54,682 nt of DNA from Candidatus Aminicenantota bacterium. Its GTDB lineage: Bacteria > Acidobacteriota > Aminicenantia > Aminicenantales > Saccharicenantaceae. Numbering within the stretch: position 1 is the stretch's first letter; every line of letters begins with the position of its first letter. Shown here one piece after another: positions 8,644-43,483 of this stretch. Location of the stretch: positions 1 through 54,682 of the forward strand of contig JABLWX010000032.1 in the NCBI GenBank assembly GCA_013178315.1, given 5' to 3'. Made by a program: the position numbers and the translations under genes. Below the pieces are notes generated by a model, which was not told the origin of the DNA, ran no database searches, and saw only the letters and a list, made by a program, of their open reading frames with translations.

Positions 8644-8672
8644 TTGACGCTATTCTTTCAAACTCATATAAT
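8644..8672 (+). promoter_or_regulatory. Strong predicted promoter of nadC; transcript probably leaderless
   Basis: TTGACG (8644-8649) and a perfect TATAAT (8667-8672) are separated by 17 bp. Normal spacing puts the transcription start at about 8679, only two bases before the nadC ATG at 8681. The bases between the -10 box and the ATG (CAGTTCCA) contain no ribosome-binding site. Confidence 0.7.
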
Positions 8673-8680
8673 CAGTTCCA

Positions 8681-9523
8681 ATGGACTGGCAAAGAATTGA
8701 CCACCTGATAGACCTGGCCCTGGCTGAAGACCTGCCAGCCGGCGATATCACCACCGAGGCCATAATACCGGAAGAGGAACTGGCGAGGGCAATGTTCCAG
8801 GCCAAGCAGGTCGGGGTGCTGGCCGGTATCGAGGTAGCGAACAGGGTTTTTCTAAGGCTGGACCCGGGGGTTGAATTCATAAAAAGGCTGGAAGATGGCC
8901 AGGCGTTCGAGCCGGGCCAGGTCCTGGCCGAGGTCAGCGGCCGGGCCGCATCGCTGCTGAAAGGGGAGAGGACCGCTCTTAATTTTCTCCAGCGACTATC
9001 GGGAGTGGCCAGCCTGACCAGATTATTTGTTGAGGCCACCGGGGGAACAAGGGCCAGGATCCTGGATACCAGGAAAACCACTCCCGGCTGGCGGCAGCTG
9101 GAGAAATATGCCGTCAGGATGGGAGGCGGGACCAACCACCGGATGAGCCTGTCCGACATGATGTTGATCAAGGATAACCATCTCCGGCAGGCCGGGGGAA
9201 TTGCTCCCGCCCTGAAGAAAGCCAGGGAGTATCTCAGGGCCAGGTCCCTGGCAGATGTCAAAATCGAAGTTGAGGCTACCAGCCTGGCCGAGGTCAGGGA
9301 AGCGCTGGACAACGGAGCCGACTGGATTATGCTGGACAACATGACGGTGGAAGAAATCAGGGCGGCCGTAGAACTGGTTTCAGGCCGGGTGCCCCTGGAA
9401 GCCTCGGGTCGGGTCAACCTTCAGAATGTCCGCGAACTGGCCCTGACCGGTGTTGATTACATATCGGTCGGAGCGCTGACCCATTCCTTTAAGTCGGCCG
9501 ATATTTCTCTTGAATTTCTTTGA
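8681..9523 (+). CDS. nadC: Nicotinate-nucleotide pyrophosphorylase (quinolinate phosphoribosyltransferase)
   Basis: Converts quinolinate and PRPP to nicotinate mononucleotide, CO2 and PPi in de novo NAD synthesis. It has the family length (280 residues). The N-terminal ALAEDLPAGDITTEA matches the QPRTase N-terminal domain; the barrel carries LDTRKTTPGWR, then GGGTNHRMSLSDMMLIKDNH, the PRPP/quinolinate-binding segments. Late barrel strands VEVEATSLAEV and IMLDNM are also present. The start is fixed by family alignment: no Shine-Dalgarno sequence precedes it. nadB follows after 13 bp. nadA, the third gene of the pathway, is not in this window. Confidence 0.96.
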   Translation: MDWQRIDHLIDLALAEDLPAGDITTEAIIPEEELARAMFQAKQVGVLAGIEVANRVFLRLDPGVEFIKRLEDGQAFEPGQVLAEVSGRAASLLKGERTALNFLQRLSGVASLTRLFVEATGGTRARILDTRKTTPGWRQLEKYAVRMGGGTNHRMSLSDMMLIKDNHLRQAGGIAPALKKAREYLRARSLADVKIEVEATSLAEVREALDNGADWIMLDNMTVEEIRAAVELVSGRVPLEASGRVNLQNVRELALTGVDYISVGALTHSFKSADISLEFL

Positions 9524-39962: not shown

Positions 39963-40896
39963 TCAACCCAGGATGGTTCCCACCCGTACCTTTCCCCCGA
40001 GCGAAAAAGAATAAGCAGACATTTCTTTTCTGCCTTCAGGTTTTACCTTTTCTATCAGGTAGAAGGTTTTCTGGCCGCAGCAGACATAAATCCCCGATTT
40101 GTCCAGCTGCACCACCTCGCCCGGCCGGGCGGCTGGCATGAGCCCCTGGGTGAGCTGGCCGGAAATTATTTCCAGGCGCAGGCCGTTAAGGTAAGTGAAG
40201 GCTCCCGGCCAGCCATAAAAGGCCCGGACCTTGCGGTCAACAGCCACGGCCGGTTCCTGCCAGTCTATCCGGCCCTGGTCCTTGGCCAGTTTCGGGGCAT
40301 AGCTGGCCAGAGAATGGTCCTGTTCCTTCAGCTGGATCTTTTCTATTTTTTCCAGGGTCCTTTAGCAGGAGCTGGGCCCCGATATGAGACATTCTGGTTT
40401 CAAGTTCGTGGGCATTCTCCCTGGGAAGGATGGGGACAACTTCCTGCGACAGGATAGGGCCCTCGTCCATTTTTTCGGTTAACTGAAAGATGGTGACCCC
40501 GGTAAATCTTTCCCCGTTAAGAATGGCCCATTGAACCGGGGCCGCCCCTCGATATTTTGGCAGCAGAGAAAAATGGATATTGAGAGATTTTAGGGGAGGC
40601 AGGTAGATTATTGAAGCGGGAATAATCTGACCGTAGGCCACAACAATATTAATATCAGGGTTTGCTTTTTTGATGGCTTCCAGAGCTTTTTCATCCTGTC
40701 GTATTTTTTCCGGTTGAAGATAGGGGAGGCCGTGGTCCTGGGCAAAAATTTTGACGGCCGGAGGGGTCAGCTTCTTTCCCCGGCCGGCGGGTTTATCAGG
40801 CTGGGTTATTATCAGCTTGATTTCATGTCCTGCGGATAACAGCCCGTTCAAGGCCGGAAGGGCGGTGGGGGGACTACCAAAAAAGACAACCCTCAT
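39963..40896 (-). CDS. fmt: Methionyl-tRNA formyltransferase, reading frame broken once
   Basis: Formylates Met-tRNAi for translation start. The first frame (40896 to about 40360) has VVFFGSP, NIHFSLLPKYRGAAPVQW with the catalytic Asn-His pair, and LTEKMDEGPIL. After about 40358 homology continues in another frame: LEKIEKIQL, SYAPKLAKDQGRIDW and RAFYGWPGAFT, ending at 39963. Removing one base in the AAAGGACC region (about 40356-40363) joins them into about 310 residues, the normal length. A single-base insertion in the sequence is the likeliest cause; a real disruption cannot be excluded. The ATG overlaps the def stop by one base (TGATG), the classic def-fmt arrangement. Confidence 0.9.
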
Positions 40897-41402
40897 CAGC
40901 TCTTGTCCAGTTCCTTTTTAAGGCGACTGCGGATCAGACGCCTTTTCAGCGGGGACAGGCGGTCCACAAACAGCTTGCCATCTAGGTGATCTATCTCATG
41001 ACAGAACACCCGGGCCAGGAGGTTGCTGGCTTCCAGCCTGATCTCCCGCCCATCTAAATCATATCCCTTAAGCAGAATTCGGGACGGTCGAGCAACTTTC
41101 TCGTATATCCCGGGTACCGAAAGGCAACCCTCTTCTCCGACCTGTTCCCCTTCGGCCTCAATTATTTCGGGGTTGACCATAATTATCAGATCACTCTGGT
41201 TCTCTCCAACTGACAGGTCGACGGTGATCAACCTGCGGCTGACATTGACCTGGGGTGCGGCCAGGCCTATCCCGGGCGCCTTATGCATGGTTTCCACCAT
41301 GTTTTTGGCCAGTTCCACGATTTCCTGGTTGATATTCTCAACCGGCAGGGCCCGGCTGGCCAGGGTGGGGTGTCCGATGGTTATGATTTCGAGCTGGGCC
41401 AT
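40896..41402 (-). CDS. def: Peptide deformylase
   Basis: Removes the formyl group from nascent proteins. All three signature motifs are present in the 168-residue protein: GIGLAAPQ, EGCLS and HEIDH, the latter two supplying the metal ligands. The C-terminal part with LSPLKRRLIRSRLKKE is a basic helix as in many type I enzymes. The ATG has no Shine-Dalgarno sequence; instead a -10 box ends seven bases before it (see the promoter entry). fmt overlaps its stop by one base. Confidence 0.96.
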   Translation of the reverse strand: MAQLEIITIGHPTLASRALPVENINQEIVELAKNMVETMHKAPGIGLAAPQVNVSRRLITVDLSVGENQSDLIIMVNPEIIEAEGEQVGEEGCLSVPGIYEKVARPSRILLKGYDLDGREIRLEASNLLARVFCHEIDHLDGKLFVDRLSPLKRRLIRSRLKKELDKS

Positions 41403-41408
41403 AGCTTT

Positions 41409-41437
41409 ATTTTAGACCAGCCCGGCCTTCCCGACAA
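41409..41437 (-). promoter_or_regulatory. Predicted def-fmt promoter; transcript probably leaderless
   Basis: On the minus strand TTGTCG (41437-41432) and TAAAAT (41414-41409) are 17 bp apart. The expected start falls on 41402, the A of the def ATG. Only AAAGCT separates the -10 box from the start codon. Confidence 0.55.
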
Positions 41438-41458
41438 CTGCCGTCGGAAAAATCAATT

Positions 41459-43483
41459 TCAGATGACGGCCGATGGTGGCGGTGGCTCGTCGGGAGCTCC
41501 GGCATTTTTAAGAGGAACGGCAATTAGATAGAATCCGATCAGGACCAGCACGGCCAGTCCGCCCAGGTAGGTCGGGTTCTTGAAGATGACCGGGATGTCT
41601 CTGCTGATTACATTCTGCAGGAAAAAGAACTTCCAGGCAGCCCGGATAAGACCGGTCAGGGCCTCTCCGGCAATCAGCCCGGCGGCCAAGAGGATGCCGA
41701 CATTTTCAACCCGGGCTTTCTGGGCCGGGTTAAGCTGTCTTCTGGCTATCATCCGGTCCAGGATTCCCTTGATCATTCCGCCCATAAAGATGGCAAAGGT
41801 GGTCTCAAGCGGAAGGTACATGCCAACGGCCACCAGCATGGGAGAGCGCACCTGCACCAGGATCAGGGCAAAGCCCATCAGCATGCCGACGATGACCAGC
41901 GGCCAGGCCATTTCGCCCCCGACTATGCCCTGAGATATGGCCGCCATCAAGCCGGCCTGGGGAGCGGGCAGGTCTTTACTGCCAAAGGTAAAGGCGCCGT
42001 GCAGGATCATCAGCGGGAAATAAAGAAGCAATGAGGCCAGCAGGACGCCAAAGATGTCACCCACCTGCATTTTCCAGGGAGTGCCGCCAAGTATATGGCC
42101 CACTTTAAGGTCCTGGAGCATTTCTCCGGCCACGGCCGAGGAGACGCAAACCACCGAGGCCACGCCGAGCACGGCCACCACTCCGCTGGTCCCCCTGGCC
42201 CCGATCAGGACCATCAGCAACCCGGCGATGATCAGAGTCGATAGGGTCAGGCCGGAGATGGGGTTATTGGAAGAACCGATGGTTCCGACCAGATTGCCGG
42301 AAACCGCGGCGAAGAAAAACCCGGCCAGTGCCATAACCACGGCCGCCAGTATGGCCGGGGGATAGCTACCGGCAAAGATTCTGTAAACAAAAACCATGAG
42401 AACCACGGTTACGGCCATCAGGAAAAGAACCAGACGGCTGTTCAGGTCCTTCTCTATCCTGGAGGTTATTTCGGTTTTCTCGGCGGCTTTCTTGACGTCG
42501 CCGATAGACCGCTTGATGCCAGCTCCCAGGTTTTTCCTCATGCGGAAAAGAGTGTAGCCGGCCCCGACCAGCATTCCGCCCACGGCAATCGGCCTGATGA
42601 TGAATTTCCAGACGTTGGTCACCAGCTCCGGCCAGGCCACCTCGCTCATGGCCACCCCCGGTCCGTAGAACTGGGTTACCAGGTGAGGCCCGAGGAAGTA
42701 CATCAGAAGCGGGGCAAACAATCCCCAGGCCAGGACGCCTCCGGCGAAGTTCAGCGAAGCCAGGCGCGGCCCGATGATATAACCGACTCCGATATAGGCC
42801 GGGAAGATCCCGGGACCGGACACGCTGACCAGGCCGCCGGTGCCGATGGTCTCGGCCTCCTTGGTGGCCCCCAGCCGGACAAAGCTGGAACCGATTTTGC
42901 CCAGCTTGATTATGAATTCCTTGGAGGCGGCGAAGAGTTGGACCACCCCCAAAGCATACAGCAGGGCTCCGACTCCCATGGCCTGGAAAAGGAACTTGGC
43001 CCCGGCACTTCCTTTCTGTCCTGCCTTGTGGATTTCGGCCGCAGCCACCGATTCAGGAAAGGGGAGCTCGGGGTCGGTTACCATGATCCTTCGGAGGAAG
43101 GTGACGAACAGAATACCCAGCAGGCCGCCCACGAACATCAGGGCCGTGGATTTAATGTAAGCATCCACCGTGTTGAATTTCAGCCAGGCCCCGGTTATCA
43201 GGAAGGCCGGGATGGTGAAGATAGCCCCGGCGGCCACCGACTCACCGATTGAACCAACCGTCCTGGCTATATTTTCTTCCAGGATTGAGCCGCGCATGAT
43301 CTTCAGCAGGGCCATACCTATGACCGCGGCCGGATAGGTGGCGGCTATGGTCATGCCAGCCCTCAGCCCGAGATAGGCGTTGGCTGCCCCGAGAATGACG
43401 GTCATTATAAGACCGAGGATAACTGCCCTCAGGGTGAATTCTTTCATATCTGTCTTCTCTGGAACGTAAGGCTTATAATCCAT
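41459..43483 (-). CDS. OPT-family oligopeptide transporter
   Basis: A 674-residue inner-membrane carrier with about 14-16 hydrophobic helices. The N-terminal pattern NAYLGLRAGMTIAATYPAAV is characteristic of OPT proteins, and NNPISGLTLSTLI lies in the second half. Bacterial members import oligopeptides or metal-chelate peptides, driven by protons. It fits the peptidase-rich context (M14, C69, TldD/E). An AAGGAG site precedes the ATG, and a promoter lies in the gap to mreB. It is a single-gene unit. Confidence 0.92.
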   Translation of the reverse strand: MDYKPYVPEKTDMKEFTLRAVILGLIMTVILGAANAYLGLRAGMTIAATYPAAVIGMALLKIMRGSILEENIARTVGSIGESVAAGAIFTIPAFLITGAWLKFNTVDAYIKSTALMFVGGLLGILFVTFLRRIMVTDPELPFPESVAAAEIHKAGQKGSAGAKFLFQAMGVGALLYALGVVQLFAASKEFIIKLGKIGSSFVRLGATKEAETIGTGGLVSVSGPGIFPAYIGVGYIIGPRLASLNFAGGVLAWGLFAPLLMYFLGPHLVTQFYGPGVAMSEVAWPELVTNVWKFIIRPIAVGGMLVGAGYTLFRMRKNLGAGIKRSIGDVKKAAEKTEITSRIEKDLNSRLVLFLMAVTVVLMVFVYRIFAGSYPPAILAAVVMALAGFFFAAVSGNLVGTIGSSNNPISGLTLSTLIIAGLLMVLIGARGTSGVVAVLGVASVVCVSSAVAGEMLQDLKVGHILGGTPWKMQVGDIFGVLLASLLLYFPLMILHGAFTFGSKDLPAPQAGLMAAISQGIVGGEMAWPLVIVGMLMGFALILVQVRSPMLVAVGMYLPLETTFAIFMGGMIKGILDRMIARRQLNPAQKARVENVGILLAAGLIAGEALTGLIRAAWKFFFLQNVISRDIPVIFKNPTYLGGLAVLVLIGFYLIAVPLKNAGAPDEPPPPSAVI

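Follow-up and report, generated by a model that had tools for sequence, protein, structure and literature searches.

The def-fmt gene pair of a Saccharicenans genome is preceded by a sigma-70-type promoter that adjoins the def initiation codon, and the geometry of this promoter makes a leaderless or near-leaderless def-fmt mRNA highly probable. The window (the whole stretch of DNA that was analysed, 54,682 nucleotides) is contig C82 of a 155-contig, 2.94-Mb assembly. The named relatives closest to it by def protein are Candidatus Saccharicenans (Aminicenantes) MAGs, with 79-92% identity where the entries are so titled.

Results

A promoter adjoins the def start codon

The minus strand reads, from position 41437 to 41400, TTGTCG, a 17-bp spacer, TAAAAT, AAAGCT and ATG (Table 1). 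The first-pass annotation had described TTGTCG-17 bp-TAAAAT ahead of def, and both boxes are found, on the reverse strand, between 41437 and 41409. Its placement of the −10 box seven bases before the def start is right if the count runs to the A of the ATG; six bases lie between. The codons upstream of def, TAA-AAT-AAA-GCT, include an in-frame TAA within the −10 box, 12 nt before the ATG, which no other start codon follows ahead of def, and the def match starts at residue 1 in 18 other genomes of the genus. The def start codon is therefore secure.

Table 1. Coordinates of the def-fmt locus and of the nadC promoter in the window.
Feature	Position	Strand	Remarks
−35 box TTGTCG	41432..41437	(-)	TTG invariant in 19/19 genus genomes
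−10 box TAAAAT	41409..41414	(-)	17 bp from −35 box; six columns invariant in 19/19 genus genomes
Discriminator AAAGCT	41403..41408	(-)	six bases, −10 box to ATG; no Shine-Dalgarno
def start codon ATG	41402-41400	(-)	A is position 7 after −10 box
def, peptide deformylase, 168 aa	40896..41402	(-)	TIGR00079 above cut-off; predicted +1 at 41402, the A of the ATG
fmt, methionyl-tRNA formyltransferase	39963..40896	(-)	reading frame broken in this assembly
OPT family transporter gene, upstream of def	41459..43483	(-)	TIGR00733 above cut-off
nadC promoter TTGACG-17-TATAAT-8-ATG	8644..8683	(+)	TIGR00078 above cut-off

The two genes share one base, the last of the def stop codon, on which the fmt ATG begins. 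In the window, fmt is divided into two reading frames, of 219 aa and then about 94 aa, and its TIGR00460 match falls in two pieces. The gene is a single frame of 310-316 aa in 17 of 19 genomes of the genus (G019 also has a short fmt), and the only other fmt match in the window genome is weak and partial. The split is probably a sequencing or assembly error.

Conservation within Saccharicenans

From the window sequence alone, the case for the def promoter is weak. The site matches 9 of 12 consensus positions, and a promoter scan of 1.2 kb returned two sites, the def promoter included, against 0.8 ± 0.9 in shuffled sequences. A site of this quality could arise by chance at about that frequency, but the comparison with relatives leaves a fortuitous match with a negligible probability and makes the promoter solid: TTGnnn-17-TAAAAT precedes def, invariantly, in all 19 Saccharicenans genomes compared (the window's own included), with conserved boxes and a spacing inside the 16-18 bp of sigma-70-type promoters. 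Loss of the boxes, which the first-pass annotation had named as grounds for refutation, was not seen. Pairwise identity among the 19 genomes is 1.0 for the −10 hexamer and the −35 TTG, 0.43 for the spacer and 0.31 further upstream; in the fourfold-degenerate columns of def (n = 34) it is 0.43, with one column of the 34 invariant. As to scope, G006 had no def match, and G012, G004 and G014 were matched without a locus and hence not read upstream. In six distant rows (L050, L053, L055, L057, L059, L062) the start was not placed on a start codon, and rows classed as "other" in the upstream comparison were left out of all counts.

The hexamer CTGGTC directly before the def −10 box (41415-41420, minus strand) is also well conserved, one of its columns being T in 19/19 genomes. 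The promoter of an epimerase-like gene (see below) likewise reads CTGGTCTAAAAT.

The first-pass annotation had further noted that def lacks a Shine-Dalgarno (SD) sequence, and this extends to the genus: no SD-like tetramer was found between −18 and −4 of def in any of the 19 genomes. SD sequences are widely used in the window genome, though absent at def; an SD-like tetramer precedes 204 of 428 sampled genes, as compared to 59 at a control position.

The distance from the −10 box to the ATG takes two values in the genus, 6 in 11 genomes and 9 in the remaining 8, and this distribution requires at least two changes on the tree. That the gap might vary in codon-sized steps, since only 6 or 9 occur at def, was considered and dropped: two changes suffice on the tree, the mutM gap is 6 in 18/19 genomes and 9 in 1/19, and that of nadC is mostly 8.

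Predicted start of transcription

Published start positions favour the seventh bp downstream of the −10 element, positions 6 to 9 being used in 8, 55, 29 and 7% of cases (PMC5730371). This rule describes an E. coli-type polymerase and may not be that of the Saccharicenans enzyme; we infer that the latter follows it. A pyrimidine-purine step is usual at transcription starts, and at the window's def promoter position 6 after the −10 box is a T and position 7 the A of the ATG. Because a gap of 6 puts it at the modal start position 7, +1 is expected on the A of the def ATG, as had been proposed for the window. Exact coincidence, with a leader of 0 nt, is predicted in the 11 species with this gap. 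Against it as a general feature stand the 8 species with a gap of 9, where the A of the ATG falls at position 10 and the prediction favours a 3-nt leader. Position 7 is a purine in 19/19 genomes, and in those with the longer gap a purine lies three nt before the ATG (8/8). In all 19, the −10 hexamer would thus place +1 on the start codon or within a few nt of it.

A start a few bases off, giving a leader of about 1-5 nt or falling inside the ATG, overlaps with the near-leaderless reading, and we consider it unlikely, yet with an appreciable chance of being correct. It would fit the range of published starts, 6-9 bp beyond the −10 box (PMC5730371), and the 9-nt gap in 8/19 relatives. The T at position 6 followed by the A of the ATG at position 7, which form the usual pyrimidine-purine step, speak against it, as does the sharp peak of strict promoters in the genus at gap 6.

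A different origin of the message was also weighed. The OPT gene lies upstream of def in the same direction in 19/19 Saccharicenans genomes, and in the window it ends 56 bp before def. def-fmt could then be expressed mainly by read-through from OPT, so that most def mRNA would be leadered and the abutting promoter secondary. This is improbable: conservation of the intergenic promoter greatly exceeds that of the flanking sequence, and def would have no SD in a read-through message. Nothing unusual emerged when the first 60 nt of a leaderless def mRNA (z −0.06) or the read-through RNA (z −0.68) were folded. A 9-bp hairpin could form over the −35 region in a read-through transcript (41421-41451, minus strand); its sequence is not kept in G033.

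In the scheme that we favour, def-fmt would have its own housekeeping-type promoter with a transcription start coinciding with the def start codon, and RNA polymerase would make an mRNA with a 5′-AUG end. Such a message would be translated by the known leaderless route, without SD interaction, and fmt would be translated from the same mRNA via the start codon that overlaps the def stop. Relatives with the 9-nt gap would produce an mRNA carrying a 3-nt leader.

The same geometry at other genes of the genus

The 19 genomes were searched with a strict pattern (TTG, 20 nt, TAAAAT, 6 nt, ATG). There were 80 matches at gap 6, 24 at gap 12 and 15 at gap 4, and reversed-pattern controls for the same three gaps gave 5, 6 and 7. 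Thirty of the 80 gap-6 matches were read as loci (L235-L264); 28 of them open long frames and 2 do not. Representatives were named murA, guaA, mutM (fpg) and def by NCBIfam, and a fifth family, epimerase-like, scored under every curated NCBIfam cut-off. Sorting by eye on promoter similarity assigned 68 of the 80 matches: 18 to murA, 16 to guaA, 12 to mutM, 11 to def and 11 to the epimerase-like family. We infer the family of the 50 matches that were not read as loci, excepting those of def and mutM, whose places agree with the located genes. The window genome has five gap-6 matches, all within these five families.

A full promoter at gap 6 precedes 6 of 428 genes in a 638-kb sample of the window genome, the other 49 gaps averaging 0.86 with a maximum of 3. 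No gap-6 peak appeared in a 200-kb sample of the related species G033 (of 139 genes, one has the promoter at gap 6, two at gap 9 and three at gap 17) or in the smaller sample of another genus, G007 (of 131 genes, none at gap 6 and one, nadC-like in sequence, at gap 9). A simple script set the gene starts in all three samples. An extended motif, CTnnnCTAAAAT, looked common to several gap-6 promoters and was dropped: it occurs 11 times in 638 kb, twice at gap 6 from an ATG or GTG.

The first-pass annotation had presented def as a second case after nadC. A similar promoter does abut nadC; the two are not identical, the nadC gap being 8. Counted from the −10 box, the A of the nadC ATG in the window is position 9, and a leader of 1-2 nt is predicted there with the same likelihood as none. 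Across the 18 nadC rows of the genus (L175-L192), TTGAC-17-TATAAT stands at gap 8 in 13 and at gap 7 or 9 in 4, the last row being unusable; G029 landed in another gene, G028 had no nadC match, and four rows whose ATG is shifted were inspected by eye. Judged from these promoters, murA, guaA, mutM and the epimerase-like gene are predicted leaderless housekeeping genes, and nadC nearly so.

def outside the genus

Among 11 genomes from elsewhere in the family, the def −10 box lies at gap 16-20 in 9 and at gap 6 in 1, and was not found in 1; five of the 11 have an SD-like tetramer at def. A survey of the phylum took one genome per genus, for 60 genera outside the family among the matches listed (293 of 297 genomes matched), and counted as consensus-like any −10 box with 5 of 6 positions or better. 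Such a box was found at gap 5-9 before def in 10 of the 60 genera among the matches listed and before 19 of 711 neighbouring ORFs (p 2.4e-5), the background starts being crude, that is, the first ATG of long ORFs. When the count was confined to operon heads, it stood at 5 of 15 for def and 6 of 528 for the background, again among the matches listed and with a cruder control, which accepted 528 of 721 background ORFs as heads and gave def an unchanged start in only 26 of 60. Of the def rows with a box, ten in all, four have the start codon 6 to 36 nt from the expected place, and an SD-like tetramer is present in one. By class, the box occurs in 6 of 13 genera within and 4 of 47 outside, 3 of these 4 in one family, among the matches listed. 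On these counts an excess at def is possible, mainly inside the class, and does not amount to a rule.

In other phyla, a consensus-like −10 box stands at gap 6-7 before def in 3 of 44 rows (L077, L099, L101), L079 and L088 being left out of the 44; recurrence of the def geometry in these phyla is possible. Four rows from Acidimicrobiaceae/Acidimicrobiales (L080, L082, L085, L087) have TAGATT at gap 6, under the threshold, and def is perhaps leaderless there too.

Discussion

A special meaning had been attached to the def promoter in the first-pass annotation on the ground that def and fmt govern formyl-methionine. Leaderless initiation would depend on formylated initiator tRNA, def-fmt would on this account stay leaderless across the genus, and frequently within the class, and the operon would sense, or be regulated by, its own pool. 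The excess of abutting boxes at def over neighbouring ORFs in the phylum, and over the crude operon heads, goes in this direction. Still, we find the proposal very hard to credit, since the background starts are crude, the def geometry is found in few genera outside the class among the matches listed, and the predicted leaderless genes of Saccharicenans span unrelated functions. Leaderless geometry was not found to be concentrated in formyl-methionine or translation genes; murA, guaA, mutM, the epimerase-like gene and, nearly, nadC share it. Because the gap-6 set is mixed in this way, a formyl-methionine link is not needed. def would be one member of a small leaderless set in the genus as opposed to a formylation-specific device, and its promoter by itself opens no new question on formylation. 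Leaderless mRNAs and 70S initiation are treated in general terms in the part of PMC7949028 that was available, and the corresponding part of PMC9031893 adds nothing on def or fmt.

A literature search found nothing joining "leaderless" with "Aminicenantes", or "Saccharicenans" with "promoter". The def-fmt pair is a well-conserved, testable case, from a class with few cultured members, of an essential operon predicted to be leaderless. A practical consequence concerns annotation: the starts of def, murA, guaA, mutM, the epimerase-like gene and nadC, all predicted to be leaderless (nadC nearly so), may be misplaced by gene callers that rely on a ribosome-binding site.

Leaderless genes are already reported for Acidobacteria (PMC3160421), and the arrangement at def is an ordinary one, which the genus also uses for genes unrelated to formyl-methionine. 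Zheng et al. (2011, PMC3160421) predicted TA-led leaderless genes in all of the 3 Acidobacteria genomes of their study, at an average of 13.3% of genes. These genes have, in the place of an SD, a −10-like signal some 10 bp ahead of the start codon (PMC3160421). def resembles them in this, and it also has a conserved −35 box at 17 bp. The TA-led study, as far as its available text indicates, predates Aminicenantia genomes of this kind (PMC3160421). The share of leaderless genes in the window genome looks smaller than 13.3%, under a stricter criterion. In Deinococcus-Thermus, a −10 motif about 6-7 bp before ORFs gives rise to leaderless mRNAs without pathway bias (PMC12340547). The def −10 region likewise adjoins its ORF; however, about one third of D. 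radiodurans genes are of this type (PMC12340547), whereas the window genome has a small set and uses SD widely. Finally, the locus resembles the bacterial def-fmt operon in that def is followed by fmt with overlapping stop and start codons, and departs from it in that the promoter abuts the def start codon, in the place of a leader with an SD.
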